This document shows, piece by piece, positions 2,369 through 27,928 of a stretch of 29,253 nucleotides of DNA. This DNA is from a virus: IMG/VR virus record IMGVR_UViG_3300044809_000064, positions 1 through 29,253 of that record, one strand, 5' to 3'. The position numbers and the translations under genes are program-made. The notes under the pieces were generated by a model. The model was not told the DNA's origin. It saw only the letters and a list, made by a program, of their open reading frames with translations, and did no database searches. Position 1 is the first letter of the stretch. Every line of letters begins with the position of its first letter.

Positions 2369-2682
2369 CCCAAGACCCCGGTCCGAGCGACCAGCCGAAG
2401 GAGCCGTCAATGGATCTCCGAGAGTTCAAGGCAGCCGGCTTTCTCCAGGAGGTCAATCGACGCTTCTTCCACCCGCTCGGCCTCGCGCTCAGTGTGCGGA
2501 CGGACAGTGACGGCTCAGTTCAACTGCACAGCATCTGGGACGGGCGTGACGACGAGGAAGGCTTCGTGTTCAAGGACCTCACCGACGACGAGCGGCTGCG
2601 CGGTAAGCGTATCGATTCGGAGCTCGAGCGGCGCTTGCGGATGCGCGAAGAGCGCCTGGGGTTTGGGATCCAGCCTCTGTGA
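2365..2682 (+). CDS. Conserved-looking phage protein of unknown function
   Basis: This encodes 105 residues. The core begins at an LREFKAAGFLQEVNRRFFHP segment, followed by a beta-like stretch and an acidic-basic C-terminal helix (ELERRLRMREERLG). Proteins with this LQEVNRRFFHPLG-like core are, from memory, common in early regions of phages and often annotated as hypothetical. It begins with an ATGA overlap with the preceding gene and ends in a TGATG overlap with the resolvase gene, so translation is probably coupled. No enzymatic motif is visible. Confidence 0.65.
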   Translation: MTQDPGPSDQPKEPSMDLREFKAAGFLQEVNRRFFHPLGLALSVRTDSDGSVQLHSIWDGRDDEEGFVFKDLTDDERLRGKRIDSELERRLRMREERLGFGIQPL

Positions 2683-3239
2683 TGCGAATACTCGGATTGG
2701 ACCTGTCACTCCGCTCAACCGGCTATGTGCTGCTCGACGAGGACGACGTCGCCTGGTATGGGGTGGTCGGCAGCGACACTCTGCGCGAATCGGAGCGCCT
2801 GGCCATGTTCGACCGGTGGATCCGCGAGCAGCTGCGCGACAAGCGGTTCACACACGTCGCGGTCGAGGGCTATTCATACGGCACGCCCCAAGGTCACACG
2901 CATGCCTTCGGGATCGGGGAGCTCGGCGGAGTGATGAAGCTGGCCATCCACCAGGCCGGCATTCCGATGCAGGTCATCGCGCCCGGGACCTGGAAGAAAG
3001 TGCTCTGCGGCAACGGGTCGCTCAGCAAGAAGAATTCGGCGGTCGAGCTCTACAAGCGATACGCGATCGAGTTCCACTCCCAGGACACGCTCGATGCGTG
3101 GGCGGTCGCCATGTGTCGCCGGCGCCAACTGCTCGGCCTCGACAAGCCGGAACCGAAGACTCGGAAAAGGCGTCCGGCGCCCGACGGAAAGTCCGATCCT
3201 TTGCCCCTACTGGAAACCGTCTCAGCCGGGCATGAGTGA
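2682..3239 (+). CDS. RuvC-like Holliday junction resolvase
   Basis: This encodes 185 residues counted from ATG 2682 (GTG 2679 directly before it is possible). The RNase H-fold signature is clear. Asp7 lies in ILGLDLSLRSTG, Glu62 in VAVEGYSYG, and Asp135 and Asp138 in SQDTLDAWAVA. The D...E...D-x-x-D set is the catalytic layout of RuvC. The enzyme should cut branched DNA in the cytoplasm, resolving recombination or replication intermediates before packaging. The C-terminal tail (from about 155) is basic and Pro-rich. It overlaps the upstream stop as TGATG and the next gene's GTG, so it sits within a translationally coupled early operon. Confidence 0.88.
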   Translation: MRILGLDLSLRSTGYVLLDEDDVAWYGVVGSDTLRESERLAMFDRWIREQLRDKRFTHVAVEGYSYGTPQGHTHAFGIGELGGVMKLAIHQAGIPMQVIAPGTWKKVLCGNGSLSKKNSAVELYKRYAIEFHSQDTLDAWAVAMCRRRQLLGLDKPEPKTRKRRPAPDGKSDPLPLLETVSAGHE

Positions 3240-3895
3240 CCAAACGCGGAAGGCGCCGGCATGGACCGAGGCGGCCGGGGCGATCACGCCCTGTCCTGCT
3301 CCAGGAGCAGACCCAGTGCGACACGTGTGGGCGCTATAGGCTCAAGGCCGAGGCCTGCTGGTTCTGTCGGCCGGCGTGGCCTGACCCCTGCTTGTGCGAC
3401 GACTGGCTGGCTCGGCATGTGCACCTCGAGCACGCGTTACTTGAGCGACTGAGCCAACTGGACTATGAGTCGATCGACGAGACGATCTTGCTCCCAACGC
3501 AGAACTGGCCGAGCTCCCCCGACGACATCATCGACCACGAGCACGAGGAGCTGGTGGGAATTGCCAACGCCGGCGAGAGCCAGCCGGCGCCGATGACCTT
3601 CCGGGCGCCGCGGATCCCTTGGCGCGACGCCCCTGAGTATCAAGCCTTTCTCACGCGCTACCCGCAACTGCGCGACCATGCTCGCTCAGGCATCGACTCG
3701 ATCTTCAGCTTCTTCGGCCTAACGTCGTCTGAGGCGGATGTCTGGTCGCTTGACGCGGCCGGCTACACGCGCGAATGGATCGCGAAAGAGACTCGCTACA
3801 ACCCCGGCGGAGTCGATCGCCTCCTCGAGAGCGTGCAGTCAAAGATCGGATCCAAGCTCGCTCGGATGGATGTAGCTGCGAAGGAAGCCGTCTGA
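3236..3895 (+). CDS. Zinc-ribbon protein with C-terminal sigma region 4-like HTH
   Basis: This encodes 219 residues from a GTG that overlaps the resolvase stop as GTGA. Cys28, Cys31, Cys41 and Cys44 form a probable zinc ribbon; Cys52 and Cys54 follow. Residues 65-150 have no recognised fold. Residues 160-209 match the spacing of sigma-70 region 4 or a LuxR-type HTH: L-T-S-S-E-A-D-V-W, then a G-Y-T turn, W-I-A-K-E-T and V-D-R-L-L followed by a K-I-x-x-K-L helix. It has no region 2, but the next gene is a region 2 alone, so the pair may act as a two-piece sigma factor. Other options are a late-gene activator or a DNA-binding packaging factor. Confidence 0.7.
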   Translation: MTKRGRRRHGPRRPGRSRPVLLQEQTQCDTCGRYRLKAEACWFCRPAWPDPCLCDDWLARHVHLEHALLERLSQLDYESIDETILLPTQNWPSSPDDIIDHEHEELVGIANAGESQPAPMTFRAPRIPWRDAPEYQAFLTRYPQLRDHARSGIDSIFSFFGLTSSEADVWSLDAAGYTREWIAKETRYNPGGVDRLLESVQSKIGSKLARMDVAAKEAV

Positions 3896-3933
3896 GATCA
3901 GGCGGGCGTCCGCCAAGACCTGGATCCGATCTC
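3894..3933 (+). other. Nested inverted repeats at the end of the sigma-4-like gene
   Basis: GAGATC (3894-3899) pairs with GATCTC (3928-3933), and inside it GGCGG (3901-3905) pairs with CCGCC (3910-3914) around a GCGT loop. No T-run follows, so a strong intrinsic terminator is unlikely. It falls in the 97-base gap that separates the early operon from the sigma-2-like gene and may be a weak terminator, processing site or operator. Confidence 0.4.
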
Positions 3934-3992
3934 AAATGTGATAGCGGTCCTTCCACCTGCCCCGTCGTAGGTAAGTAGGAGGGGATTGAGCA

Positions 3993-4217
3993 ATGGTCAC
4001 AACTGACGTTTTAGCAACGCTGCAGCCATCCCTCCTCGCTCGAGCGCGAGAACTCGATCCCGACGGAGCTGAGGATCTGCTCCAAAACGCCTATCTGCGT
4101 TTCGTCACCCATCCGCCTGAGGCGACAACCGCCAACGAAGTCAAGCGCTGGTTCCGCACCGTGCTCCAGAACATCCGTAAGGACATGTTTCGCGCTCGCC
4201 CGGTCGACTGGAAGTAG
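3993..4217 (+). CDS. Stand-alone sigma-70 region 2-like protein
   Basis: This encodes 74 residues, with an AGGAGG ribosome site 13 bases before the ATG. The sequence follows sigma region 2: a first helix LLARARELD, then the core-binding helix with DGAEDLLQNAYLRF (compare D-A-E-D-L-V-Q-E-x-F-L-R in ECF sigmas), then NEVKRWFRTVLQNIRKDMFRAR, matching the W-L-x-x-x-x-x-N-x-x-x-D-x-x-R helix of regions 2.3-2.4. The protein stops there, so region 4 is absent. ECF sigmas are usually about 160-200 residues. The gene sits between the sigma-4-like gene and the virion genes. A role in late transcription is inferred, by analogy with split sigma systems such as B. subtilis SigO-RsoA. Confidence 0.75.
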   Translation: MVTTDVLATLQPSLLARARELDPDGAEDLLQNAYLRFVTHPPEATTANEVKRWFRTVLQNIRKDMFRARPVDWK

Positions 4218-4362: not shown

Positions 4363-4490
4363 GGGACCAGCGTCTGGCTCTGCTGTGGCACCTGGTCGAG
4401 TTCCTCGTGGCGCTCAGCCTCGTCGGCGTCGTCTGGTCAATCCGGCATCAGCGCCCAACTCTCGTGGAGACGCGACGCCCGGCAAGGTGA
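4359..4490 (+). CDS. Tiny single-TM membrane protein
   Basis: This encodes 43 residues from TTG 4359, overlapping the preceding stop by 4 bases. After a short N-terminus (MRDQR) there is one hydrophobic helix of about 20 residues (roughly LALLWHLVEFLVALSLVGVV), then a basic tail rich in Arg. The positive residues after the helix suggest the C-terminus is cytoplasmic. The stop TGA at 4488-4490 overlaps the GTG start of the next gene. The function is unknown; small membrane proteins in phages include holin-like, superinfection-exclusion and regulatory peptides. Confidence 0.5.
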   Translation: MRDQRLALLWHLVEFLVALSLVGVVWSIRHQRPTLVETRRPAR

Positions 4491-4669
4491 AGCGCGGTGA
4501 CCGGGTCGAGGTCATCGCCAAGGCCAATGAGTACTCCGGGTTCCATGGCGAGGTCCTCGACATAAGGCCAGATGGACATCTCGTCGTCTCGGTGGAGGTG
4601 AAGTCAGTCATGACCTGGAACGTCACGTTCGTTGCAACTGACGTCAAGCTCGAATCTAAGGAGGCCTGA
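4487..4669 (+). CDS. Small KOW-like (SH3-fold) protein
   Basis: This encodes 60 residues if GTG 4487, which overlaps the preceding stop as GTGA, is the start. The frame is open further upstream to 4385, but that part overlaps the membrane ORF and is Arg/Pro-rich like out-of-frame translation. The sequence K-R-G-D-R-V-E-V-I-A-K, then S-G-F-H-G-E-V-L-D-I, then G-H-L-V-V-S-V has the G-D-x-V-x-V...G-x-x-G-x-V pattern of KOW motifs (ribosomal L24, NusG). Such domains bind RNA or protein. It ends in a TGATG overlap with the next gene. The role here is unknown. Confidence 0.6.
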   Translation: MKRGDRVEVIAKANEYSGFHGEVLDIRPDGHLVVSVEVKSVMTWNVTFVATDVKLESKEA

Positions 4670-5364
4670 TGGCTGACAAAATCACGCTCGCTGATGCCCA
4701 ACAGGGTGTCGCCCGTCGATTCGTCGACATGGGAGACAACACCTTCGCCGAGCTGATGAAGGCCGTCCTTGGCCCCATCCCCTATCAGACTCTTGGCCAT
4801 TACCGAACGATTCACCGGACGGGCCTGGTGAACGCGCAGGCAGCGAACTCGCGGCTGTTTTCGATGCGCAATACACATGTGACCAACCTGATCATTCCAA
4901 CGCGGGTGCAGGTCAAGTGGCTTCAGACGGGCGCCCACACCGCCGCGCTCGAAGACAGCGTCGACATCTTCAAGTGCACAGGCTTCAGCGTCTCGGACAG
5001 CGTCAACACCGTCACCCCAACCGCGTCAAGGAAGCGGACGAGCTCAATGGCGGCTGCGCCTGGGGCAGCAGAGATCCGCGGCGTGACGGTCGCCGGCGCC
5101 GCAGCCGGTATGACCGGCGGGGCGCTCACCAAAGACGCCGCGCCTTATGGTCAGCTCCCTGCTTGGCTGCTCGCCGCGCTGCCCACGGCGGCGATGGTCC
5201 CGTTCTGGCTGTACGACGACGACCACGACGAAGCGACGTTGACGCACCCCTTCGTGTACGCACAAAACGAGGGCATCGAAATTGAGAACCGCGTCCTGTT
5301 GGGCGCGGCCGCGGCCTCGAGTCTCTACATCGACTTCTCGTGGGCCGAGGTCACCGTCTTCTGA
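4669..5364 (+). CDS. Probable virion-associated protein, unknown role
   Basis: This encodes 231 residues with a strong AAGGAGG site 5 bases before the ATG, which implies high expression. The N-terminal part is mixed; the middle holds Ala/Gly/Thr-rich low-complexity stretches (about residues 130-160); the C-terminus alternates hydrophobic and polar residues in a beta-like way, ending in YIDFSWAEVTVF. There are no signal peptide or enzymatic motifs. Its place before the packaging genes and its codon use like the structural genes suggest a virion component such as a head fibre or decoration protein. This is inference from context and composition; I recognise no family. Confidence 0.6.
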   Translation: MADKITLADAQQGVARRFVDMGDNTFAELMKAVLGPIPYQTLGHYRTIHRTGLVNAQAANSRLFSMRNTHVTNLIIPTRVQVKWLQTGAHTAALEDSVDIFKCTGFSVSDSVNTVTPTASRKRTSSMAAAPGAAEIRGVTVAGAAAGMTGGALTKDAAPYGQLPAWLLAALPTAAMVPFWLYDDDHDEATLTHPFVYAQNEGIEIENRVLLGAAAASSLYIDFSWAEVTVF

Positions 5365-5570: not shown

Positions 5571-5890
5571 AGCGCCCGTGCCTCGGGCTTCCCGGCGAGC
5601 CGTGCGGCATCTTGACCGATGGGAGCCGCTGCCCAGCCCATACTCGCGTTCTGAACCAAGCGAGAGGTAATTCCACTCAGCGCGGTTACGACTACGGCTA
5701 CCAGCAGCTGGCCAAAAGGGTCAAGGACAAGCATCTCGCGAACTTCGGCTGGATCTGTCCCGGGTGGGGAATCGAGGCTCATCCGTCAGCCGAGCTGAGC
5801 GTCGACCACATTCGGTGGCCAGCGAACACTGAAGACGACCTGCAGATTCTCTGTCCTGGCTGTCAGAACCGGAAGGGGGCCGCTCGATGA
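5567..5890 (+). CDS. HNH endonuclease beside terminase, probable CTG start
   Basis: About 107 residues are encoded if translation starts at CTG 5567; the first conventional start in frame is TTG 5612. The longer N-terminus carries a Cys pair (KRPCLGLPGEPC) and then SRCPAH, which is how phage HNH proteins typically begin (CxxC...RCxxH). The CTG lies just after AGGAAGG and overlaps the previous stop as CTGA, matching neighbouring junctions. The nuclease core has ICPG, then ELSVDHIRWP (the HNH histidine), then LQILCPGCQNRKG with the second zinc-binding Cys pair and Asn. HNH proteins beside terminase are needed for DNA cleavage during packaging in cos phages (HK97 gp74). Confidence 0.82.
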   Translation: MKRPCLGLPGEPCGILTDGSRCPAHTRVLNQARGNSTQRGYDYGYQQLAKRVKDKHLANFGWICPGWGIEAHPSAELSVDHIRWPANTEDDLQILCPGCQNRKGAAR

Positions 5891-6348
5891 CTCGAGGCCG
5901 CAAGCCTGTCCCCGCCGAGCTCAAGCGTCTGCGTGGAACCGCCCGCCCAGATCGGATGCCCGACGAGTCAAACGTCATCGCGCTGCCCGGCGCGATCGGC
6001 ACACCAACGCCGCCAGGCAGCCTCGGCCTCGAAGGCCTCAGCCTCTGGAAGCAAATTTGGGATGGCGGGCCGCTGTGGCTGTCGCCTCGAACCGACATGG
6101 CAGCCATCGAGGAGGCCTGTCGCCTCGAGGACGACATTGCCCTGGCGCGCGAACGTTATCGCGCGACACGAGATCCCAAAGACGCTCGCGCCCTGGTCGC
6201 CCTCAATCGATCGCTGACCGCAGGCCTCTCTTCTCTCGGGTTTGACCCCGCAGCTCGCACGCGGCTGGGCGTCGCGGAGGTGAAAGCTGCGTCAGCCATC
6301 GACAAGCTCCTTGCGAGACAGGAGCGCAGAAAAGCAGAACGCGAGTAG
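5887..6348 (+). CDS. terS: Terminase small subunit (P27-like)
   Basis: This encodes 153 residues, overlapping the HNH gene by 4 bases (ATGA). The N-terminus begins TRGRKPVPAELKRLRGTARPDRMP, a hallmark of P27-type small terminases (the K-P-x-P-x-x-L-K-x-L-x-G-x-x-R opening). A middle helical part and a basic C-terminal helix (LARQERRKAERE) follow. The small subunit recognises the packaging site on phage DNA and delivers it to the large subunit at the portal. The HNH, small and large terminase order supports the call. Confidence 0.85.
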   Translation: MTRGRKPVPAELKRLRGTARPDRMPDESNVIALPGAIGTPTPPGSLGLEGLSLWKQIWDGGPLWLSPRTDMAAIEEACRLEDDIALARERYRATRDPKDARALVALNRSLTAGLSSLGFDPAARTRLGVAEVKAASAIDKLLARQERRKAERE

Positions 6349-7849
6349 CTGGCCACCGCGGTGGCTGACCCCAGTTCCTCAGGCTGACATCGACCGTGGC
6401 GACGGCGCGCTATATAGCGATTTCATCGAGGCGCTTTGTCGAGCGACTGAGGATTCGATCGCGGCGAAACGGGGCGATCTACTCCAACTCCGTTACTGGC
6501 AGAAGTTTCTTTTGGGTCACCTGCTCGCTCGCCGGCCCGACGGGCGATACCTTCATCGCACCGGGCTGATCGGCGTCGGCCGCAAGAACACCAAAAGCAC
6601 AATCGGTAGTGGCGTAGGCCTCGGCGGCCTCATCCTCGGACCGCAGGGCGGCAAGGTCTATAGCTGCGCCGCTGACAAGGACCAGGCCAAGGTCGTCTTC
6701 GGAACGGCGAAGCAAATGGTCGAGCTCGAGCCAGAGCTCAGGAAGCTCATCACCCCGTACCGAGACGCACTCGAGTTCGCGGAGACCGGCTCGGTCTATC
6801 GAGCGCTCTCCGCCGAAGCCTTCACGAAAGAGGGACTCAACCCGACCCTCGTGCTGTTTGACGAGGTCCACGCACAGCCGAACCGCGAGCTCTGGGACGT
6901 CATGTCCCTCGCCCAAGGCGCCCGGGAAGAGCCGCTCATGATCGGGATCACCACGGCGGGCGTGAAGGTCGATAGCACTGGGCAGGAGTCGCTCTGCTAC
7001 GGCCTTTACCAGCACGGCTGCAAGGTCGCCACCGGAGAGCTGAAGGACCCCCAGTTCTTCATGGCCTGGTGGGAACCTCGCAATCCAGCTGCGGACCATC
7101 GCCTGGAGAGCACGTGGCGCGAAGGCAATCCCGGTTATGACGACCTCGTCGCCGCCGAGGACTTCAAGGCGAAGGTCAAGACCACGCCGGAAGCTGAGTT
7201 CCGGGCCAAGAGGTGCAACCAGTGGGTTGCCACCAAGCAAGCCTGGATCCCGACCGGCAAGTGGGAGGCATGCGAGAAGAACCGCAGGATCCCAAAGGGC
7301 GCCGCGGTCACGCTGGGCTTCGACGGTTCCTACTCAAACGACAGCACCGCACTGACGGTAGTGCTGATCAATCCGGTCCCCCACATCGATGTTGTTGCCT
7401 GTTGGGAGCGGCCGCCGAAGGCCGACGACACATGGAAGGTGCCGATCTCTGAAGTTGAGGATGCGATTCGCGAGGCGTGTAAGCGCTGGCAGGTCGAAGA
7501 GATCGTCTGCGACCCGGCCCGGTTCGCGAGGAGCTTCGAGGTCCTCGAGGACGAAGGCCTACCCGTAGTCGCATTTCCGCAGTCGCCGGAGCGGATGGTC
7601 CCCGCGACCCAACGCTTCTACGAGGGAGTGCTCAATAAACAGTTCACGCATTCGGGCGATCCTCGTCTGGCACGTCACGTCGGCAACTGCGTCGTCAAGG
7701 TCGACCAGCGCGGCTCACGCATAGCGAAGGAGACGAAGTCGAGCACTCGAAAGATCGACCTCGCTGTCTGCGCGGTCATGAGTCTCGAGCGGGCCGTGTT
7801 TCTGGCAACGCCAACCGTGTACGCCAAGCGCGGCATCGAATGGATATAG
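6311..7849 (+). CDS. terL: Terminase large subunit
   Basis: This encodes 512 residues. The only usable start is TTG 6311, which overlaps the small-subunit gene by 38 bases. The ATPase domain has a deviant Walker A at 88-97 (GVGRKNTKST), Walker B at 181-187 (VLFDEVH) and a coupling motif GITTAG at 212-217. The nuclease domain shows the RNase H-type acidic residues Asp338 (GFDGS), Asp401 (VCDPAR) and Asp483 (KIDLAV). The protein is the packaging motor: it pumps DNA into the prohead and makes the end cuts. The length is normal for an HK97-like terminase. Confidence 0.95.
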   Translation: MRDRSAEKQNASSWPPRWLTPVPQADIDRGDGALYSDFIEALCRATEDSIAAKRGDLLQLRYWQKFLLGHLLARRPDGRYLHRTGLIGVGRKNTKSTIGSGVGLGGLILGPQGGKVYSCAADKDQAKVVFGTAKQMVELEPELRKLITPYRDALEFAETGSVYRALSAEAFTKEGLNPTLVLFDEVHAQPNRELWDVMSLAQGAREEPLMIGITTAGVKVDSTGQESLCYGLYQHGCKVATGELKDPQFFMAWWEPRNPAADHRLESTWREGNPGYDDLVAAEDFKAKVKTTPEAEFRAKRCNQWVATKQAWIPTGKWEACEKNRRIPKGAAVTLGFDGSYSNDSTALTVVLINPVPHIDVVACWERPPKADDTWKVPISEVEDAIREACKRWQVEEIVCDPARFARSFEVLEDEGLPVVAFPQSPERMVPATQRFYEGVLNKQFTHSGDPRLARHVGNCVVKVDQRGSRIAKETKSSTRKIDLAVCAVMSLERAVFLATPTVYAKRGIEWI

Positions 7850-7858
7850 GAGGCGCCC

Positions 7859-8023
7859 GTGAAATTTCGCCTTCCTGACCGCAATGACGCGCTTGTTCTG
7901 CTCGGCGCCACCGCCATCGTCGCCGGCGTCTGGCAGGTACTGCCATGGCTGGCCATGGTGATCGCCGGCCTGATGGTGGCTTACGTCGGCGTAGTCACCG
8001 AGCGCGCGGAGCCCAAGGAGTAA
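7859..8023 (+). CDS. Small two-helix membrane protein between terminase and portal
   Basis: This encodes 54 residues from GTG 7859 with an AGGAGG site at 7848-7853. After a short polar start (MKFRLPDRND) the sequence is hydrophobic for about 37 residues, with a Pro-Trp kink near residue 29, so it probably makes two short membrane helices. The tail is charged (TERAEPKE). The stop TAA abuts the GTG of the portal gene. Small hydrophobic proteins occur at this spot in several siphoviruses; their role is not known to me. Confidence 0.7.
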   Translation: MKFRLPDRNDALVLLGATAIVAGVWQVLPWLAMVIAGLMVAYVGVVTERAEPKE

Positions 8024-9706
8024 GTGGGGATCCTCGCTCGAGCGGTGCGCGGTCACGCCCAATCCGGCGTGGCCAATCCGCAAGGATGGTTTGTCGACTG
8101 GCTCGGCGGCGGCCGCTCAGCGACTGGCTTGGTGGTCGACGAAAACACGGCGATGACCTCGACTGCGGTCTACGCCTGCGTGAAGATCATCGCCGAGACA
8201 ATCGCCTCGCTCCCGCTGCATGTCTACGAGGAGAAGTCGGACGGATCAAAGCTCAAGGCAACGAGCCACCCGCTCGACAAGACGCTGCATCAGCAGCCGA
8301 ATCCCGAGATGACGAGCCAGGAGTATTTCGAGACCAAGACCGGGCACCTCATGACCTGGGGCCAGTGCTTCAGCGAGATCCAGTTCAACAACGCCGGCCA
8401 GCCAATCGCGCTCTGGCCGCTTCGACCGGACCGGATGCAGATCTACCGGAATCCCGAGACTCTCGAGCTCGACTACCAGTTCAACCTCTACAAGGGCGGA
8501 ATGGTGCACCTCCGAAAGGAGCAGGTCCTGCATGTCCGCCTGATGAGCCGGGATGGCATCAACGGCCTCTCGCCCATCGGCCAGAACATGGAAACGGTCG
8601 GGCTTGACCTTGCCCTGCGTAGGTACGGCGGCAAGCTCTTCGGAAATTCAGGCGTGCCGATCGGCGCCATCAAGTACAAGCGAAGCCTCAACGAAAACCA
8701 GAAGACCGAGCTGCGCAAGAGCTTTGGCAGCAAGTACGACGGCCTCGACAACGCCGCCCGGACCGCGCTTTTCGAAGAGGACATGGATTGGGTCGCGATC
8801 GGCCTGCCTCCAGAACAGCTGCAGTATCTCGCTGCGCTCAGCTTCACCCTGCAGGACATCGCTCGAATGTTCCGGATCCCGCCGCACCTTCTGCAGGAGC
8901 TCACTCGATCGACCAACAACAACATCGAGCACCAGGGCATCGACTACGTCATCCACACCGTTCGCCCGCACATCGTTCGCTACGAGCAGCGGATGAAGGC
9001 AAGCCTGTTCTTCAACTCGCCAGACCACTACCCGATGTTCCGCGTCGACGGATTGCTGCGTGGCGACCTGGCCTCGAGGTACGCGGCATATGCGGTCGCT
9101 CGGCAGTGGGGCTGGTTGAGCGTCAACACCATCCTCGCCATGGAAGACATGAACGGGGTAGGGCCGGAGGGCGACGAGCTGCTGCGCCCGCTGAACATGG
9201 TGCCCGCTGGCACCCCGCTGAACTTCGCGCCACCCAAGGACCAACAGCCGACAGATGGCCAGGGTCCGGATGACGGAGGCGACGGGGATCCCACCGCGGC
9301 TCGGATGGCCATTCGCGACGTCCTCGGCGATGTCCTCCGTCGGGTGGCTCGCCGTGAGCGCAATGACGTAATGCGGGCAGCCAAACGCTTCATGTCGAAG
9401 TCGGACGTTGACGGCTTCAAGGCGTGGACCGTTGATTTCTTCGTCGAGCACCGCGCCTTCATCGAGCAGCAGCTCGAACCTGTGGTCAACGCAGCGCACC
9501 GACTGAAGGTGACCGACGCCTCGCCGGCGGAACTCGCGGATCGCATTGCCGCGCGCGGCCTCGGCCGGGTGGGCGGGTGGATCCAGGCAAGCGCGCAGCC
9601 ATCTCACGTAGTGCCTCAGCTGGAGGCCGCATACGAAACCGTCGAAGTCGACGAGGTTGAGCACGACGACGATCTGCCAACCCCAGCGCTCAGGAGGGCC
9701 AGTTGA
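8024..9706 (+). CDS. Portal protein (HK97 family) with long C-terminal tail
   Basis: This encodes 560 residues from GTG 8024. Residues 1-400 have the HK97-type portal signature: the STAVYACVKIIAETIASLPLHVYE opening block, RPDRMQIYR, the EQVLHVRLMS-DGINGLSPI block, and LSFTLQDIARMFRIPPHLL followed by the STNNNIEHQGIDYV segment. The portal is a dodecameric ring at one capsid vertex through which DNA enters and leaves and to which the tail attaches. After residue 415 comes an Asp/Gly-rich linker (QPTDGQGPDDGGDGDP) and about 130 helical residues, a longer tail than the minimal portal. Its 3' end overlaps the protease gene by 4 bases (TTGA). Confidence 0.95.
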   Translation: MGILARAVRGHAQSGVANPQGWFVDWLGGGRSATGLVVDENTAMTSTAVYACVKIIAETIASLPLHVYEEKSDGSKLKATSHPLDKTLHQQPNPEMTSQEYFETKTGHLMTWGQCFSEIQFNNAGQPIALWPLRPDRMQIYRNPETLELDYQFNLYKGGMVHLRKEQVLHVRLMSRDGINGLSPIGQNMETVGLDLALRRYGGKLFGNSGVPIGAIKYKRSLNENQKTELRKSFGSKYDGLDNAARTALFEEDMDWVAIGLPPEQLQYLAALSFTLQDIARMFRIPPHLLQELTRSTNNNIEHQGIDYVIHTVRPHIVRYEQRMKASLFFNSPDHYPMFRVDGLLRGDLASRYAAYAVARQWGWLSVNTILAMEDMNGVGPEGDELLRPLNMVPAGTPLNFAPPKDQQPTDGQGPDDGGDGDPTAARMAIRDVLGDVLRRVARRERNDVMRAAKRFMSKSDVDGFKAWTVDFFVEHRAFIEQQLEPVVNAAHRLKVTDASPAELADRIAARGLGRVGGWIQASAQPSHVVPQLEAAYETVEVDEVEHDDDLPTPALRRAS

Positions 9707-10776
9707 ACAAGAAGCGAGCATCTAAGCTCCGGTCGGTGGCCGCGGTCTGCGCCGGCCGCCGACAACTGCCGATGGCAGTCAAGCTGCGAGCGATCGCCAA
9801 GCGCCAGGACGAGCCGGCGGATGGAGATGTCGACGAGACTCCCGAAGGCCTGGCGGCCGCCGTCGACGCCGCGCTCGACGGAGCTCTTGACGCAATCCAG
9901 GCCGGCGAGGTCGATCAAGGCCTGGCCCTGGTCACCGCTGCCGCGACGAGCATCGATGAGCTGCTCGACGTTCTCGGCGTCACGGATGCCGACGAGGTAG
10001 GGGCTGAACCAGCCGGAGCTCGATCGGCAATCGCGTCGGTCGGCGGTGTTGAGCGGCGCTCGATCCTTCAGCCGATCAGGCTCGAGGAACGCGCGGACGG
10101 CGGTATGCCCAAGCTGCTCGGCCATGCGGCCGTATTCAACTCAAAGAGCGAGGACCTCGGCTTCTTCTATGAATTCATCCGGCCCGGCGCCTTCCAAGAC
10201 TGCCTCGGCATCTACGACACCGCCTGCCTGAAGAACCATGACCCCAACTACCTCATTGCTCGGCTGAGCAATGGGACCCTTCTGCTGCAGGAAGACAAGC
10301 GCGGGCTCTATCAGGAAGCGGAGCCGAACGACACGCAGTCGTGTCGAGACACGATTCAGGAGGTCCGCAGGCTCGACCTGAACGGCCAGTCCTTCTCCTT
10401 CGACATCGAAGACGACACCTGGCGCACCGAGAACGGCGTTCCCGTGCGCGAGATCTTGAAGGTCCGGACGCTCTACGACGTCGGGCCGGTCGTGTTTCCA
10501 GCCTATCCCGCCACCGATGTCAAAGCCCGCGGACTGATGGCGGCCCGCGGCCTCGACGTCGAGGGCTTCTCAAGCGCGATCGTCAAGCAGCTGAGGCGGA
10601 TCCCGCTGACGCCAGCCGATCGCGACATCGTCAAGCGCGCCATCGCCGTCCTGCAGCTCACGGAAGAGGACAACCGGCAGGAGCCCGTTGCCCCGGTCGC
10701 GGAATCTGCGGCGCCAGAGGCCTGGCGCTTTGCACACCTGCGGCGCCGGCTTGAGCTCGCAGCTCTGAGCGCCTAG
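9703..10776 (+). CDS. Prohead maturation protease (HK97 / peptidase S78-like)
   Basis: This encodes 357 residues from TTG 9703. The protease domain runs about 115-285: LLGHAAVFNSKSEDLGFFYEFI, then LKNHDP with candidate catalytic His179, then NGQSFSF with candidate catalytic Ser230, then the hydrophobic L-Y-D-V-G-P-V-V-F-P-A-Y strand. This is the layout of the HK97 prohead protease, which cleaves the capsid delta domain and then itself during maturation. The first 115 residues are an extra, highly acidic Ala/Asp-rich helical region not needed for proteolysis. It may act as scaffold or control timing, which is inference. It lies between portal and major capsid, as expected. Confidence 0.92.
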   Translation: MNKKRASKLRSVAAVCAGRRQLPMAVKLRAIAKRQDEPADGDVDETPEGLAAAVDAALDGALDAIQAGEVDQGLALVTAAATSIDELLDVLGVTDADEVGAEPAGARSAIASVGGVERRSILQPIRLEERADGGMPKLLGHAAVFNSKSEDLGFFYEFIRPGAFQDCLGIYDTACLKNHDPNYLIARLSNGTLLLQEDKRGLYQEAEPNDTQSCRDTIQEVRRLDLNGQSFSFDIEDDTWRTENGVPVREILKVRTLYDVGPVVFPAYPATDVKARGLMAARGLDVEGFSSAIVKQLRRIPLTPADRDIVKRAIAVLQLTEEDNRQEPVAPVAESAAPEAWRFAHLRRRLELAALSA

Positions 10777-10858
10777 CGCTCGCACTCGTCAACGAGATCT
10801 TCAGCGCCATCCGGCGCCGATTTCACGCATTCCATTCCAGCAAGGAGATCCGCACACG

Positions 10859-12184
10859 ATGAACGAAAGGATCCGGCAGCTCCAGGAGCGCCTCAACGCC
10901 ATGGTGACCGAGGCTCGCTCCATCGTCGACAAGGCCGAGGCCGAGAATCGCGACCTCAGCCAGGAGGAGCAGAACCGATACGACACGATCTACAACAAAG
11001 AAGTCGTCGCGCTCAAGGTGCGCATCGAGCGCGAGAGAGCGATCTTTGCCGAAGAGGCGCACCTCCAGGCAGCTGCGCCAACCGTCGCCGCCAGGGACGG
11101 CCAGCCCGACCGCGGGAACCAGCCCTCGAGCGCCGGCCTCCACCCCATCTTCGGACGCGCGAAGAAGTTCCTCGAGGACCGAGGCATCGTGCCAGAGTCG
11201 GAGCAGGTCGCAGGTGTGCGCCGGGCCGCGTGGGCACGCTACCTCCGCGGTGGCGCGCAGATGCTTTCCGAAAGCGAGCGCCGCGACCTCCAGATGGACG
11301 CGGACACCCAGGGCGGCTTCTTGGTCGCACCGCAGGAGTTCTCTGCCGCGCTGATCCAGGCCGTGGACGACCAGGTCTGGATCCGACAGTTCGCCACGGT
11401 CGAAACCGTGACCAACGCAGAGGGACTCGGCATCGCGTCCCTCGACGCCGACCCCGCCGACCCGGACTGGACGTCTGAGATCGGCACCGGCGGACTCGAC
11501 GCGACGATGAAGTTCGGCAAGCGCGAGCTGAAGCCGCACCCGCTGGCCAAGCGCGCGAAGATCTCGAACAAGCTCATCCGCGCCGCGAGGCTCGCCGTCG
11601 AGGCGAAGGTCATCGAGCGCCTGAGCTACAAGTTCCAGATCGCAATGGAGAAGGCCTATCTGCTGGGCTCGGGAGTCGAGCAGCCGCTGGGCGTCTTCAT
11701 CGCCACGACAGACGGCATCTCAACCGCCCGCGACGTTTCCACCGGAAACACGGCGACCGCGATCGGCGCGGACGGCGTGATCGAGGCCAAGTTCAAGCTC
11801 AAGGGCAACTACTGGGCCAAGTCGCGGTGGATCTACCACCGCGATGCCCTCAAGGGCATCATGAAGCTGAAGGACACCAACGGGCAGTACCTGTGGGTCT
11901 TCTCTGGCATCGGCCAGCGCGGTCTCCAGGACGGCCAGCCCGACACGCTGCTCGGCCTCCCCACCCATCTCTCCGAGTACGTGCCCAACACGTTCACCAC
12001 GGGCAAGTACGTCGGCGCCGTCGGCGACTTCTCGAAGTACGGGATCGTCGACGCCCTCACGCTGCAGCTGCAGCGCCTGGTCGAGCTCTACGCCGAGACC
12101 AACCAGATCGGCTACATCGGCCGGCTGGAGACAGACGGCATGCCCCTCCTCGAGGAGGCCTTCGTCCGCGTCACCCTCGCCTAA
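10859..12184 (+). CDS. Major capsid protein (HK97 fold)
   Basis: This encodes 441 residues with a CAAGGAGA ribosome site about 10 bases before the ATG. Residues 1-65 form a coiled coil (MNERIRQLQERLNAMVTEAR onward), the delta/scaffolding domain. The mature shell protein probably begins somewhere between 105 and 145. Typical HK97-fold capsid sequence follows: DADTQGGFLVAPQEFSAALI, then VETVTNAEGLGI, KRAKISNKLIRAA, GVEQPLGVFI, and near the end YAETNQIGYIGRLETDG. Many copies build the icosahedral shell. An 82-base gap before it and a strong hairpin after it suggest expression is tuned separately from neighbours. Confidence 0.95.
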   Translation: MNERIRQLQERLNAMVTEARSIVDKAEAENRDLSQEEQNRYDTIYNKEVVALKVRIERERAIFAEEAHLQAAAPTVAARDGQPDRGNQPSSAGLHPIFGRAKKFLEDRGIVPESEQVAGVRRAAWARYLRGGAQMLSESERRDLQMDADTQGGFLVAPQEFSAALIQAVDDQVWIRQFATVETVTNAEGLGIASLDADPADPDWTSEIGTGGLDATMKFGKRELKPHPLAKRAKISNKLIRAARLAVEAKVIERLSYKFQIAMEKAYLLGSGVEQPLGVFIATTDGISTARDVSTGNTATAIGADGVIEAKFKLKGNYWAKSRWIYHRDALKGIMKLKDTNGQYLWVFSGIGQRGLQDGQPDTLLGLPTHLSEYVPNTFTTGKYVGAVGDFSKYGIVDALTLQLQRLVELYAETNQIGYIGRLETDGMPLLEEAFVRVTLA

Positions 12185-12209
12185 GCGAGGTCTCTGTAGC
12201 TACCAATCC

Positions 12210-12233
12210 GGCGGGGCCGATCGCGGCCCCGCC
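12210..12233 (+). terminator. Perfect 10-bp hairpin after the capsid gene
   Basis: GGCGGGGCCG (12210-12219) and CGGCCCCGCC (12224-12233) pair perfectly around an ATCG loop. No T-run follows. It lies 25 bases after the capsid stop codon. It could protect the capsid mRNA 3' end, or attenuate transcription into the next genes; a full intrinsic terminator is less likely. Confidence 0.6.
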
Positions 12234-12268
12234 ACCACAAACCAAGACAAGGAGCTGATCCAACACCG

Positions 12269-12703
12269 ATGGCACAGAAGCTCAACTACGTCAAGCTCAC
12301 GCGACCGCTGAACGCGGTGGCGGCCGGCGTATCCGTGCAGAACGGGACCGGCGTCGACACCACCGACTTCGAGGGGGTGCTCTTCGTCTTCGCGATGGGA
12401 GCGCTTTCCGCGACCCAGGTCACCTCGCTCAAGGCGCAGCAGTCGCTCGACGACGGCGGCACCGACCCCTACGCCGACATCACCGGCGCCGTCACGGCCG
12501 CGGCGGCCGACGCGGACAGCAACAAGCTGCTCGTGCTCGACGTCTACCGGCCGCAGAAGAAGTTCGTCCGGCCCGTCGCCACCAGGGGCACCGCAAACGC
12601 CGTGATCGATGGCGTGATCGCGATCCTCTACGGCCCGAAGAAGGCCCCGACCTCACAGTCGGCGACTTTCGTCAGCCAGTCGAAGGCAGCGCTGGGCGTC
12701 TAA
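12269..12703 (+). CDS. Probable capsid decoration / head-stabilising protein
   Basis: This encodes 144 residues, with a CAAGGAG site before the ATG. The composition is Ala/Val/Thr/Asp-rich and predicted mostly beta (NAVAAGVSVQNG, FEGVLFVFAMGAL, NKLLVLDVYRP, KKFVRPVATRGTANAVIDGV). A similar small protein often directly follows the HK97-type major capsid gene, and several of those are minor or decoration head proteins. No conserved catalytic residue is visible. The call rests on position and composition. Hairpins lie on both sides of the gene. Confidence 0.6.
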   Translation: MAQKLNYVKLTRPLNAVAAGVSVQNGTGVDTTDFEGVLFVFAMGALSATQVTSLKAQQSLDDGGTDPYADITGAVTAAAADADSNKLLVLDVYRPQKKFVRPVATRGTANAVIDGVIAILYGPKKAPTSQSATFVSQSKAALGV

Positions 12704-12716
12704 GCAAGCGTGTCCT

Positions 12717-12745
12717 GATGGGGGTGGCAATGTGCTGCCCCCATC
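12717..12745 (+). terminator. Long hairpin after the decoration-like gene
   Basis: GATGGGGG (12717-12724) pairs with CCCCCATC (12738-12745). Two G-U pairs and GCA/TGC extend it to 13 pairs around an ATG loop. Only scattered T residues follow (GCTTCGTTCGG). It lies 13 bases after the stop codon and is probably an attenuator or RNA-stability element between head and connector genes. Confidence 0.55.
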
Positions 12746-12782
12746 GCTTCGTTCGGAGCTTCGTTTGGGAGGTGCATGAGAT

Positions 12783-13004
12783 ATGCCCAAAGTCGTGATG
12801 CTGACGACCGCCGCCGACGCCGATGGAGTGCGGCACGTCGAGAAGGTCTACACCGTCTCCAAGAAGGAAGCGGAAGACCTCATCGCCGCCGGCGCCGCCC
12901 GCGCGCTCGGCGCTTCGGAGTCGGCAGTGTCCGGTGCGTCCGAGAACGCGTCTGGTCGACGCGGCCGCAGCAACGCCGTGTCGGGTCCGGACGAGGACGC
13001 GTAG
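12783..13004 (+). CDS. Small protein before the head-tail connector
   Basis: This encodes 73 residues, with a GGGAGG site 11 bases before the ATG. It begins with a beta-like block (MPKVVMLTTAADADGV), then KVYTVSKKEAEDLIAAGAARAL, which looks like a small fold in which a strand is followed by a helix. The last 30 residues are low-complexity Ser/Gly/Ala. Short proteins with a KVYxVxxxEAxxLIxxGxA pattern are common before connector genes in phages, usually of unknown function (from memory). It may be a minor head or tail accessory protein. Confidence 0.65.
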   Translation: MPKVVMLTTAADADGVRHVEKVYTVSKKEAEDLIAAGAARALGASESAVSGASENASGRRGRSNAVSGPDEDA

Positions 13005-13014
13005 GGAGTAGCAG

Positions 13015-13716
13015 GTGCCCGGGCTCGCCAACTACGCACTGGCCGCGGACGTATCGGCATACCTGCCGAAGGTACCGGTGGCGCAACAGGCGACCTGGGC
13101 ACAGCTTCTCAGCGCAGCTTCCCGGGGCATCGACGGATTCTGCGAGCGCTACTTCTACAACGACACCGGCTCGACCCGCTACTTCGATGTGCCTGGTGAT
13201 CCCGATGGGTCGACGCCGATCCGAACCTTCCTGATGGGCAAGCACGACTTCTACGGCATCACGACCGTGAAGATCGCCGAGATCGAGAACGCGGACCCGG
13301 CGGTAACCGGAGATTGGGTGCAGCTGACCGGTGATGGCATCACGCCACCGTCCGACTTCTTCTTCGAGCCGGCAAACGAGGCCTATATCGGAAAGACGGG
13401 CGACGTGAACATCAAGCCCTGGAGTCGCATCGAGTTGCCCGCGACGCCAGGCCGAACATCCACCACCTTCCGCGATCGATTCGTGGTCGGCAAGCGGACG
13501 CTGGCAGTTACTCCGCAGTTCTGGGGCTGGCCAGCGATTCCTGACCAGATCAAGGACATCACCGCAAAGATCGTCGTTCGCATGCACAAGGCGCAGCCGA
13601 CAGGATTCACGGGCCAGACCGGCTCGCCTGAGGTGGGCGCCGGTACGATCCTGAACTTCCTCGACATCAACGACCTCAAGGTTCTGGCGAGCTACAAGAA
13701 GCAGAGCGCCGGCTGA
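13015..13716 (+). CDS. Head-tail connector protein (gp6/gp15-like)
   Basis: This encodes 233 residues from GTG 13015. The N-terminal helix-rich block (LAADVSAYLPKVP, then LLSAASRGIDGFCERYF) resembles the opening of adaptor proteins that sit beneath the portal, such as SPP1 gp15 and HK97 gp6. A beta-rich middle follows, then a C-terminal block IPDQIKDITAKIVVRM typical of these connectors (P-x-x-I-x-x-A-x-x-x-x-x-R). Its position between head and tail-completion genes agrees. It overlaps the next gene by one base (TGATG). Confidence 0.75.
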   Translation: MPGLANYALAADVSAYLPKVPVAQQATWAQLLSAASRGIDGFCERYFYNDTGSTRYFDVPGDPDGSTPIRTFLMGKHDFYGITTVKIAEIENADPAVTGDWVQLTGDGITPPSDFFFEPANEAYIGKTGDVNIKPWSRIELPATPGRTSTTFRDRFVVGKRTLAVTPQFWGWPAIPDQIKDITAKIVVRMHKAQPTGFTGQTGSPEVGAGTILNFLDINDLKVLASYKKQSAG

Positions 13717-14186
13717 TGGAGATCACGTACAAGATCGTTGGCCTCAAGAAGCTCCAGGCGGCTACGCGTCAGGCACCGGGCATCCTCTCGATTCGGACAA
13801 ATGAGGCGATGCACCGATCAGTCGAGCTCGTCGAGAGCTTGGCGCGGATCGGCTCGCCCGAGGGGCCCGGCCATTTCGGCTACCACGAATCAGAGCGCTG
13901 GTCGACTCGCGTGCGCTCCGGCCCCCGCCGCCTGGTCGGTGTTGTCTCGAACAGCGCGGCTCAGGCTCGCTGGCGTGAGTTCGGAACGCAAGCGCACGAC
14001 ATACGGCCGAAGAGCGCTGCAGCACTGAAGATCGGCGGGCGGTTTGTTTCCTTCGCCCACCACCCTGGCGTGAAGGCAAAGCACACCGGCAAGAAGGCTC
14101 TGACCGCATCGAGGAGCGCGATCACCGTCTTCTTCACGGATGCCCTCAAGGGCGTCACCCAGAGCCTCGCGACGAGCGGCGACTAG
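13716..14186 (+). CDS. HK97 gp10-like tail-completion protein
   Basis: This encodes 156 residues. The hallmark of the HK97-gp10 family is clear: an N-terminal MEITYKIVGLKKLQAA strand-helix, a W-R-E-F-G-T-x-A-H-x-I-x-P-K motif (about 90-105), an A-L-x-I-G-G-R-F-V strand, then HHPGVKAKH. Proteins of this family act at the head-tail joint or at tail completion in siphoviruses. The gene is flanked by the connector and a probable tail terminator, the usual order. The ATG overlaps the previous stop. Confidence 0.85.
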   Translation: MEITYKIVGLKKLQAATRQAPGILSIRTNEAMHRSVELVESLARIGSPEGPGHFGYHESERWSTRVRSGPRRLVGVVSNSAAQARWREFGTQAHDIRPKSAAALKIGGRFVSFAHHPGVKAKHTGKKALTASRSAITVFFTDALKGVTQSLATSGD

Positions 14187-14699
14187 ATGCCCGACTTTCA
14201 GGCAGATGTCATGTCCCATCTCGCGCACGTGATCGGCGGAACCGTCAGTGCGACCGACCCCACCTTCTTCTCGGGAGCGCTGGCCAACGCAGGCAACGGC
14301 GACGGGTCGGGCGTTGCAGGACTCCTGGGCTGCTACTCCGATGCGCCAGCTGGCATCGAGGCGCTGCCCGTCGGGATCCTGCTGCCGCCGTCGTTCAAGG
14401 CGGACCTGATGAGCCAGGGCGAGGAAGAGAACTTCGACGATGTAACCCTGGTCGTCCTGGTCGCGCCGGCGGACACCGAGTCAGCGATCAACGAGCTCAT
14501 GCCGTTTCGAGACTTGGTGCCCGCCGCGTTTCGCTCGCACATGAGGGCCTACGCGATGCCGAACACCGGATGGTGCTACGTGAGCGCCGGCGAGTCGGGC
14601 ATCCACAACTGGGGCGGCATCGATTACTACGCCTGGAAGTTCACTCTCAGCGTCCATCGCGACATGGCCGTGAACTACGTCGACGGCCCGACCTCCTGA
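14187..14699 (+). CDS. Probable tail terminator / tail-completion protein
   Basis: This encodes 170 residues beginning at the ATG right after the gp10-like stop codon. It has an N-terminal helical opening (PDFQADVMSHLAHVI), a long mixed middle with the beta block DDVTLVVLVAP, and a C-terminal beta block ending in YYAWKFTLSVHRDM. That last strand resembles the closing strand of tail terminator proteins (lambda gpU-like), which cap the tail tube and join it to the head. The call comes mainly from gene order between gp10-like and tail tube genes; sequence evidence alone is weak. Confidence 0.55.
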   Translation: MPDFQADVMSHLAHVIGGTVSATDPTFFSGALANAGNGDGSGVAGLLGCYSDAPAGIEALPVGILLPPSFKADLMSQGEEENFDDVTLVVLVAPADTESAINELMPFRDLVPAAFRSHMRAYAMPNTGWCYVSAGESGIHNWGGIDYYAWKFTLSVHRDMAVNYVDGPTS

Positions 14700-14742
14700 T
14701 CTAGTCCGACAACTTCATCTCGCCTGAGGAGGCTTTCACTGA

Positions 14743-15027
14743 ATGGCTCAATTTCGCTACAAGCACGTCGGCGACTCGCGCCTCCTGCTCGAAGGCAAGC
14801 TCGTCAAGCCTGGTGAGGAGATCGAACGCGACGAGGAGATCATCAACGGCAACTTCGAGCCGGCCAACGAAGCCGCGGTGGCAGCGAAGGCAAAGCGCGA
14901 CGAAGAGGAAGGGACCGCACGCGCCGCCCACGAGCTGAGCCTCATGGGCACCGGCGCGGCGCCAGAGCTCGAACCCGAAGTCGAAGCCGCGAAACCCAAG
15001 CGGGCTGCCAAGCCCAAGGAGGCGTAA
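14743..15027 (+). CDS. Small charged protein before the tail tube gene
   Basis: This encodes 94 residues, with a GAGGAGG site 10 bases before the ATG. Residues 1-45 look like a small beta domain (MAQFRYKHVGDSRLLLEGKL onward, then EEIERDEEIING). The rest is a highly charged Ala/Glu/Lys tail ending in PKRAAKPKEA, probably disordered. The lysine-alanine C-terminus resembles tails seen in some virion and DNA-contact proteins, but no family is recognised. Confidence 0.65.
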   Translation: MAQFRYKHVGDSRLLLEGKLVKPGEEIERDEEIINGNFEPANEAAVAAKAKRDEEEGTARAAHELSLMGTGAAPELEPEVEAAKPKRAAKPKEA

Positions 15028-15034
15028 CAGCTAG

Positions 15035-15979
15035 ATGGCCAATCCTACTTACCGCCAAATTTTGGGCCTCGCAAAGGAGACCACGTGGGGCACTCCTGTC
15101 GTTGCGACGTCGTTCTTCCCGACCCGTAAGCCGAGCGGTTTCGTGCCGCAGTACGAGGACCTGCTCGACGACTACTTCCGCAACAACGCGAGCGACGAAC
15201 AGGCCTATTACCAGGGCGTGGGTCTAACGCCATTCGATAGCGGCGAGATGCTCGTCTGGCCCGACGACTCGCTGCATTTCCTGATGGCTCTGTTCGGCGT
15301 CGACACCATCAGCGGGGCTGGCCCTTACACGCATCCGATCACCCTGCTCAACACTGCCGACCCGCCGTCGTACACGCTCACGCTTTTCGACAACCTGATC
15401 GCTACGGCGCGACGCATCTCTGGAGCCCAGATCACCGAGGTCCTTCTCAAGTGGTCCACCAAGGGCAAATTGACGATGCAGGTGAAGGGTATCGGCAAGG
15501 TCGCCGACACAGTCACCAAACCGACTGAAACCTTCTCGGCCGCATCTCCCTTCCTGGGCTGGCAGTACACGGCCAGCGTATCGGGCGCGAACACCCGAGT
15601 TGAGGAAGGCGAGATCCTCTTCAAGCGCGATGTGCAGCCGGTCTACGGCGGTGCTGGAACGCAGGACATGAACCAGCGAATGATCGACAGCCTGAACGGC
15701 AGCGGCTTCCTTACGTTTGCTGTGATCGACGACACGGAGAAGGGGTACTACACCGGCAACACCCAGCCGGCGGTCTCCATCGTCTTCACATCCGGAACCA
15801 ACGTCCTGACCTTGCAGATGAGCAAGTGCGCGTTCGTCAAGGGATCAGACATCGACCGCGGCAGTCTCTACAGCAAGGTGCGCCTGCCGTTCAAGGCGAT
15901 CGCAAATGCGACCGACGCGGGGACCGGAAATGCCCCCGCCAAAATCATCGGCGTCAACGGAAAGTCGACCGCTTACTAG
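15035..15979 (+). CDS. Major tail tube protein
   Basis: This encodes 314 residues, ATG 15035. The opening RQILGLAKETTWGTPVVATSFF is the hallmark start of Phage_tube_2-type tail tube proteins (G-x-A-x-E-x-T-x-G-T-P-V-x-A). It is followed by an acidic PQYEDLLDDYFRNNASDEQ stretch and beta-rich blocks (GEMLVWPD, SYTLTLFDNLI, EVLLKWSTKGKLTMQVKGIG). Rings of this protein stack to form the tail tube through which DNA passes. It directly precedes the chaperone frameshift pair and the tape measure, as expected. Confidence 0.88.
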   Translation: MANPTYRQILGLAKETTWGTPVVATSFFPTRKPSGFVPQYEDLLDDYFRNNASDEQAYYQGVGLTPFDSGEMLVWPDDSLHFLMALFGVDTISGAGPYTHPITLLNTADPPSYTLTLFDNLIATARRISGAQITEVLLKWSTKGKLTMQVKGIGKVADTVTKPTETFSAASPFLGWQYTASVSGANTRVEEGEILFKRDVQPVYGGAGTQDMNQRMIDSLNGSGFLTFAVIDDTEKGYYTGNTQPAVSIVFTSGTNVLTLQMSKCAFVKGSDIDRGSLYSKVRLPFKAIANATDAGTGNAPAKIIGVNGKSTAY

Positions 15980-16004
15980 CCGTCCGAAAAGAGAAGGAGA
16001 GAAG

Positions 16005-16448
16005 TTGCCAGAGCTCAAGACAGTCGAGGTCGCCGTCGACACGTTCACGCTGAAGAACAGCGGCGTCACCGTTGCCATGAGGCGTAAGGCGAGCGCAGCC
16101 GAGCATGACCAGTCGATCCAGGGAATGATTGGAGAGGGCTACGCCAACCAGCGCCACGGGTATCGGATCTATCTGCGTTTTCTGGCGGCGGCGATCATCA
16201 CCTTCTGGGATGCGACCCGCCCCGGCAAGGATGGCGAGCAGGAACCGATCCCGATTTCGCCGCAGACGCTCGAGCTGATCCAAGACGAGAAGGATTACGA
16301 GCAACTGCTCGACGAGGCCGAGAAGCGCGTCGTGTTGCGGGAGGCGGCAGATCCGGAGGGGGAGCGAAATTTCGAGACGTCCTCTACACCGTCTTCACCG
16401 GAAACGAGCTCGAGTCCGGAGACCTCCCCAGGCTCGTCCGCGAACTAG
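16005..16448 (+). CDS. Tail assembly chaperone, short form (gpG-like)
   Basis: This encodes 147 residues from TTG 16005 with an AAGGAG site about 7 bases upstream. The frame is open back to 15906, but that overlaps the tail tube gene. The protein has a beta N-terminus (LKTVEVAVDTFTLKNSGVTV), a helical core, and a Ser/Thr/Pro/Glu-rich last 25 residues that look like out-of-frame sequence. The small chaperone between tube and tape measure coats the tape measure during tail assembly. A slippery A AAT TTC in frame at 16367-16373 allows the longer product to be made. Confidence 0.85.
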   Translation: MPELKTVEVAVDTFTLKNSGVTVAMRRKASAAEHDQSIQGMIGEGYANQRHGYRIYLRFLAAAIITFWDATRPGKDGEQEPIPISPQTLELIQDEKDYEQLLDEAEKRVVLREAADPEGERNFETSSTPSSPETSSSPETSPGSSAN

Positions 16449-16612
16449 ACCTTCTGGAGTCGCTGGGGCAGCAGTTCCCGCATGTCGCCTGGACCCTCGA
16501 GGGGCTCCGCGCCCTGGATCTCCAGGATCGAGTTGACCTCCAAACGATCGTGAACTACCGCTTCGACATCGCAGAGAGCAGGAGGGTGGATGACGGACAG
16601 AGCGGAACTTGA
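16005..16612 (+). CDS. Tail assembly chaperone, -1 frameshift form (gpGT-like)
   Basis: Reading the first 123 codons of the short form and then shifting back one base at A AAT TTC (16367-16373) continues in the -1 frame from 16373 to TGA 16610-16612. It adds 79 residues, for 202 in total. The added part reads like real protein: RDVLYTVFTGNELESGDLP, then RELDLLESLGQQFPHVAWTL, then LQTIVNYRFDIAESRR. It has no good start of its own. This is the lambda G/GT arrangement, in which the extension recruits tail tube subunits. The last 23 bases overlap the tape measure gene. Confidence 0.82.
16367..16373 (+). other. Programmed -1 ribosomal frameshift site A AAT TTC
   Basis: The heptamer fits the canonical X XXY YYZ rule exactly in the zero frame (codons CGA AAT TTC), giving AAA TTT after slippage. 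A short inverted repeat, CCGGA (16398-16402) with TCCGG (16415-16419), follows 24 bases downstream. A G-run (16358-16362) just before could add an upstream Shine-Dalgarno-like stimulus. Confidence 0.8.
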
Positions 16613-27874: not shown

Positions 27875-27891
27875 TCTGTCACTTCCCCTTT

Positions 27892-27928
27892 ACGCTGTAA
27901 TGATACAGCGTATCAGATACGTCGTCAA
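27892..27928 (-). promoter_or_regulatory. Promoter and overlapping palindromic operator of the TA operon
   Basis: On the - strand, TTGACG (27923-27928) and TATCAT (27900-27905) are separated by exactly 17 bases, a near-consensus sigma-70 promoter. ACGCTGTA-ATGA-TACAGCGT (27892-27911) is a perfect inverted repeat covering the -10 box. TGATAC-AGC-GTATCA (27901-27915) and GTATC-A-GATAC (27910-27920) are two further perfect overlapping repeats in the spacer. This is the expected layout for autorepression by the antitoxin. Confidence 0.8.

Follow-up and report, generated by a model that had tools for sequence, protein, structure and literature searches.

Two adjacent genes of a phage from the IMG/VR collection (record IMGVR_UViG_3300044809_000064, positions 1 to 29,253; this whole stretch of 29,253 nucleotides is referred to as the window) appear to encode a two-subunit sigma factor for late transcription, a reading to which we give a probability of about 0.64. 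One gene encodes what sequence comparison and modelling indicate to be a stand-alone sigma region 2, and the other a protein ending in a helix-turn-helix of the sigma4/LuxR type. The argument draws on the identity of the small protein, the C-terminal domain of its putative partner, and the recurrence of the pair ahead of the virion genes in six distinct phages.

Organization of the Locus and Its Phage Context

The pair lies on the + strand, downstream of a gene for a RuvC-like Holliday junction resolvase (2679-3239, +) that is a conserved neighbour and was the bait for fetching relatives. The GTG start of the first gene (3236-3895, +; 219 residues) overlaps the RuvC stop in a shared GTGA, and a gap of 97 nt separates this gene from the second (3993-4217, +; 74 residues), whose ATG stands 8 nt after a ribosome-binding site, AGGAGGGG (3977-3984, +), read from the sequence. 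The genes 3' of the pair are on the same strand and run into the virion genes, with an endolysin further along. PHROGs matches identified a late module (5612-18641, +) of HNH endonuclease, small and large terminase, portal, protease, major capsid and tape measure genes, and together with the coordinates these matches confirmed that the two genes are neighbours situated before the virion operon, as the initial annotation had placed them. The small HNH endonuclease gene (5612-5890) is immediately 5' of that of the small terminase, an arrangement shared by many packaging modules of the HK97 type.

The closest large terminase among named phages was that of Pontimonas phage phiPsal1 (47%), followed by those of phiC31-type Streptomyces phages, and on the basis of these sequence matches we suggest an actinobacterial host for the window phage. 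The presence of an integrase and a tRNA-Gln at the contig end indicates that it is a temperate phage or a provirus. The integrase, of the tyrosine type (28128-29222), adjoins a tRNA-Gln(CTG), and their junction is likely the attachment site. Two overlapping minus-strand genes (27105-27930), one of them HTH/excisionase-like (PHROG 66), are adjoined by an AT-rich stretch with operator-like repeats (ACGCTGTAATGATACAGCGTATCAGATACG) and probably represent the lysogeny control region.

The comparisons below cover six distinct phages, all from metagenomes: the window and the loci L002, L003, L006, L008 and L010 (L007 and L009 are identical to L006, which was counted once). Scans with either sigma-like protein yielded only L002 and L003, both of which have both genes in the same order as the window. 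By contrast, L006, L008 and L010 were fetched by a scan with RuvC and, as the sigma genes were not used for fetching them, they provide an unbiased test of whether the two genes occur together.

The Small Protein Is a Predicted Stand-Alone Sigma Region 2

The product of 3993-4217 matched the Pfam Sigma70_r2 model over residues 10-69 of its 74 residues (E=5.6e-5; 23.3 bits against a Pfam cut-off of 24 bits), and in NCBIfam it matched the TIGR02983 SigE family (1.4e-6) and many other ECF models. Its core-binding helix (EDLLQ) and the helix with W53...N60...D64...R69 could both be read intact in the sequence, in agreement with the initial annotation, and D28 and Q31 occupy the sites at which known sigma factors contact the beta' coiled-coil. 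These D-L-x-Q core-binding residues are retained in five of the six region 2 sequences.

Structural comparisons pointed the same way. A search of the PDB with a three-member region 2 profile returned ECF sigma factors first (5uxx, 2.9e-4). The AF2 model of the protein (pLDDT 86) has three helices as in region 2, and its leading PDB fold matches were ECF sigma2 domains (5uxx, TM 0.71), with weak E-values that are expected for a chain of only 74 residues; in a viral structure library it matched full-length phage sigma factors. The chain resembles the region 2 of ECF sigma factors but begins and ends with that region, having neither the linker nor region 4. Based on these matches, the ECF-like fold and the orthologs that score over the Pfam cut-off, the proposal that this gene encodes region 2 only has held up, and we conclude from sequence and model that its product is a stand-alone sigma region 2. 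A profile search of the window for a further region 2 found none besides 3993-4217.

The Partner Ends in a Sigma4/LuxR-Type Helix-Turn-Helix

The 219-residue product of 3236-3895 is composed of a basic N-terminal tail, a zinc ribbon, a conserved middle (LERLSQLDYESIDE.ILLPT) and a C-terminal helix-turn-helix (3701-3865, +; about residues 155-212), the last delimited by hhalign and the AF2 model. The initial annotation had described it as a protein with a sigma region 4-like helix-turn-helix and without region 2. Region 2 is indeed absent, but the protein had no curated region 4 match in Pfam or NCBIfam (Sigma70_r4 and r4_2 included). In PHROGs the sole match of the first protein was to phrog_3282, 'sigma factor', over residues 161-210 and with a weak E-value (0.39).

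Profile-profile comparison was more informative. The three-member partner family aligned to sigma4 by hhalign over residues 158-208 with a score of 30.5, and none of 200 column-shuffled versions of that family exceeded 18.7. The score against a LuxR-type profile was 29.7 and thus almost equal; with the L006 member added, the scores were 39.4 for sigma4 and 35.8 for LuxR. Given the distance from the shuffles and the closeness of 30.5 to 29.7, assignment of the partner to the helix-turn-helix superfamily appears secure, but its sequence barely prefers sigma4 over LuxR. The AF2 model had a pLDDT of 60 overall and of about 70-88 in the C-terminal 85 residues, and this C-terminal region matched both response regulators (RcsB, DosR) and sigma4 domains (SigR, SigE, SigD4) with weak E-values. 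The region 4 identity of the window partner itself is therefore weak, and our call is based on the profile-profile comparison and on the better-scoring positional counterparts in L008 and L010.

The zinc-ribbon segment, CxxC-x9-CxxC (3317-3367, +; residues 28-44, with C28xxC31 and C41xxC44), matched bL32 zinc ribbons weakly (E=0.19-0.8). A PDB sequence search with the partner produced bL32 zinc ribbons or chance matches only. The segment is kept in the window, L002 and L003 but is absent from the partners of L006, L008 and L010; the zinc ribbon that the initial annotation saw fused to the region 4 part is thus a conserved trait of one group of these phages and not a general one. The partners of L008 (10581-11084) and L010 (within ORF 4460-5221) have another N-terminal domain without a zinc ribbon. 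A segment of that domain, QPVVLTPAGDVIQGQVRVAEA, looks ParB-like by eye; Pfam gave no match.

Conservation of the Pair in Related Phages

In L006, L008 and L010, RuvC is followed by a protein ending in a helix-turn-helix-like segment and then by a stand-alone region 2. Both halves were consequently found in 6/6 distinct phages of the RuvC clade, in the order RuvC, sigma4-like protein, region 2, and co-conservation of the pair, which the initial annotation had made a matter of related phages, was borne out. The region 2 proteins of L006 (42.2 bits), L002 (33.6) and L010 (25.7) score above the Pfam cut-off, and those of the window (23.3), L008 (21.6) and L003 (15.8) under it. There was one region 2 per matching record, always stand-alone, that of L003 being under the reporting level of that search. 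A full-length sigma factor, whose presence in relatives would have counted against a split, was sought by profile in all of the records, some of them fragments, and none was seen.

The L008 and L010 partners resemble sigma factors more clearly than does that of the window. The L010 partner matched the PHROGs sigma factor families phrog_351 (7.6e-4) and phrog_3512 (0.0075) and the L008 partner phrog_3512 (0.016); their hhalign score against sigma4 was 43.7, and they ranked first (L010) and second (L008) of 1570 ORFs by a sigma4 profile made from E. coli and phage phiM9 sigmas only. Their matches to Sigma70_r4/r4_2 were weak. Direct similarity between the window partner and the L008 and L010 partners was tested for and none was detected.

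The two genes overlap in L008 and L010, and in L006 the region 2 gene starts right at the stop of the partner gene. The region 2 gene, which has an ATG in the window, apparently starts with CTG in L002 (5556) and with ATA in L003 (4937), and each of the three starts is 8 nt after a good ribosome site. The unusual start codons may limit region 2 translation in L002 and L003. The L006 region 2 protein (9364-9774) has a C-terminal extension of ~45 residues that is absent from the window protein.

Low scores against the curated models could be taken to mean that the pair is what remains of an ECF sigma factor, split by decay into two parts without function. However, the order, region 4 and then region 2, is the reverse of that in a broken sigma gene, and six phages retain the split although the identity of their proteins is low, the genes overlapping or abutting in L006, L008 and L010. 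In addition, third codon positions were the most changed in every pairwise comparison of both ORFs (3236-3895 and 3993-4217), a substitution pattern indicating that both are under protein-level constraint. Based on the reversed order and the constraint, we rejected this explanation as having a negligible chance of being correct.

The grouping of the phages differed between RuvC and the pair. By RuvC identity the window is nearest L006 (75%), and L008 is also nearest L006 (76%), whereas either sigma half joins the window to L002 and L003 and L008 to L010, leaving L006 as a third type that is nearer to the window. As these three groups are identical for the two halves and unlike the RuvC grouping, the pair seems to change together and independently of RuvC, although adjacency may contribute to the shared grouping. 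The downstream terminases of the six phages are of several dissimilar kinds, which indicates that the pair is not simply a component of one virion module.

These observations bear on the possibility that the two genes are mere neighbours, namely a LuxR-like or Q-like late activator or antiterminator beside a sigma2-like decoy for polymerase or an anti-sigma factor. The near-equality of the LuxR-type and sigma4 scores favours such separate regulators, as does the location of a zinc- and DNA-binding protein right before the late genes, a position like that of lambda Q. On the other hand, the zinc ribbon is missing from half of the phages, contrary to a Q-like reading, and the 6/6 co-conservation and the matching groups of the halves argue against independent functions. 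Sigma mimicry is documented for PhyR, whose core-binding residues are reported to be degenerate (PMC8103513), while D-L-x-Q is kept in all but one of the six region 2 sequences. We consider two separate regulators unlikely, and the two-subunit sigma factor remains our preferred reading.

Beyond the six phages, the pair was not encountered. Distant RuvC phages, including those of a second RuvC scan (L011-L018, L024-L096), showed no such pair when searched with these profiles. Viral and genome contigs gave no match when scanned with the small protein as a single sequence, scans based on alignments recovered L002 and L003 only, a second genome scan found nothing, and a scan with the L008 and L010 region 2 sequences returned contigs already known. 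Tblastn searches of named phages and plasmids brought up no relatives, or at most weak similarity to complete phage sigma factors. Relatives were thus sought in phage, plasmid and genome collections, and none were found.

A Candidate Promoter Ahead of the Region 2 Gene

The gap between the two window genes contains a conserved two-box element, TGATAG-N19-CGTCGTAGG (3939-3972, +), which is a candidate promoter. It has a counterpart in L002 (5503; TGATAG-N19-CGTTGTTAG) and a looser one in L003 (4884), the general form being TGATAG-N19-CGTYGTWRG-like. TGATAG is unique on the + strand of L002 and L003, and the window has one more, at 28351. If the element is a promoter, which is speculative, it would put the transcript start just 5' of the ribosome site. 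Directly 3' of the first gene (3893-3934), nested inverted repeats, TGAGATC...GATCTCA, surround GGCGGGCGTCCGCC; RNA folding of this hairpin was no better than that of shuffles, and neither a sigma-70 promoter nor a terminator was found 3' of the first gene.

A second copy of the element was sought upstream of the virion genes and none was seen, so that the late unit would begin with the region 2 gene, provided that the element serves the pair as its own promoter. The same result might instead mean that the split sigma factor is genuine but serves another gene set, such as early, replication, lysogeny or host genes. We think this improbable, as every member has the pair between RuvC and the virion genes, and the terminases that follow it differ. 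Its recurrence as a unit ahead of the virion genes indicates that the two-subunit sigma factor probably turns on late genes.

Comparison with Known Two-Protein Systems

Transcription initiation by SigO-RsoA of B. subtilis needs both halves. In this system, also named YvrI-YvrHa, sigma4 and sigma2 are on separate proteins encoded in the operon yvrI-yvrHa (PMC8103513). In all six phages, region 2 and the putative region 4 are likewise encoded side by side as two chains, a likeness tempered by the weak region 4 call. SigO-RsoA is, however, chromosomal in Bacillus, while the pair described here occurs in a lineage of phages whose hosts are probably actinobacteria, and its N-terminal part differs, with a zinc ribbon in some members.

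Late transcription in SPO1 is served jointly by gp33 and gp34, whose genes are adjacent and overlapping. Gp34 is a sigma factor indispensable for the late infection genes (PMC9429907), and in our searches it reached 23.8 bits against the region 2 model and matched region 4 with E=0.058; scores this low indicate that weak matches are normal for real phage sigmas. SPO1 differs in having a sigma factor, gp34, with region 2 and a weak region 4, plus the accessory protein gp33 (Phage_Gene33), and not two half-sigmas. Neither product of the window pair matched PF25742 (Phage_Gene33).

The genes of T4 gp55 and gp33 are widely apart, and the gp45 clamp is required for their function. The two proteins have been called a 'split sigma' for late genes, a region 2 protein with a beta-flap protein (PMC2988020), of which gp33 is structurally unrelated to sigma region 4 and recognises no DNA sequence (PMC7892883, PMC2988020). 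By this precedent, the small protein could be a region 2-only promoter factor and its partner a flap co-activator or clamp that reads no -35 element, and the weak region 4 identity of the window partner would allow it. Gp33 lacks a DNA-reading helix-turn-helix, however, whereas the partner described here has one of the sigma4/LuxR type at its C-terminus and is encoded next to the small protein, and the L008 and L010 partners match sigma factor families. A gp33-like co-activator therefore seems distinctly unlikely. A two-subunit sigma factor, if confirmed, would act in the mode of SigO-RsoA and in the role of T4 gp55/gp33, a likeness of function that does not imply homology of the pair. The suggestion in the initial annotation of an undescribed phage late switch is supported by the recurrence of the pair in all six phages, but late control by two proteins as such has precedents in T4 gp55/gp33 and SPO1 gp33/gp34.

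Proposed Mechanism and Significance

From the position of the pair we infer its role in late gene expression, and we likewise infer the partnership of the two proteins, their DNA targets and their timing. The first subunit would be made with the early or replication genes, given the overlap of its start with the RuvC stop. On the host RNA polymerase, the small protein would bind the beta' coiled-coil, and it would recognise the -10 element and melt it. The C-terminal region 4 of the first protein would dock on the beta flap and recognise the -35 element, while the N-terminal part would tether this protein to polymerase or to its small partner. Both subunits would then jointly redirect the host polymerase to one or more phage late promoters. 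In the window clade, where the region 2 gene is behind the promoter-like element and heads the virion run, this gene may amplify itself together with the late operon.

More broadly, we speculate that a modular, exchangeable two-subunit sigma factor acts as the late switch in a lineage of temperate phages, with a minimal region 2 of ~74 residues, a region 4 subunit whose N-terminal domains are interchangeable, and halves that are swapped as one cassette controlling unrelated virion modules; we put this at somewhat under an even chance. The interchangeable domains, a zinc ribbon in one group, may couple late transcription to replication or to another signal.

Two-piece sigma factors are rare, and why any exist is a standing question; the T4 literature asks what keeps the tasks of region 2 and region 4 apart on two proteins (PMC2988020). 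In the phage pair both halves look like sigma domains, and the region 2 subunit is near minimal. As natural variants range from ~70% identity to barely detectable similarity, the question of why a sigma factor is split could be addressed by mixing halves. The pair is compact, recurrent and directly testable and, if confirmed, would be a small two-input transcription switch for high-GC bacteria.
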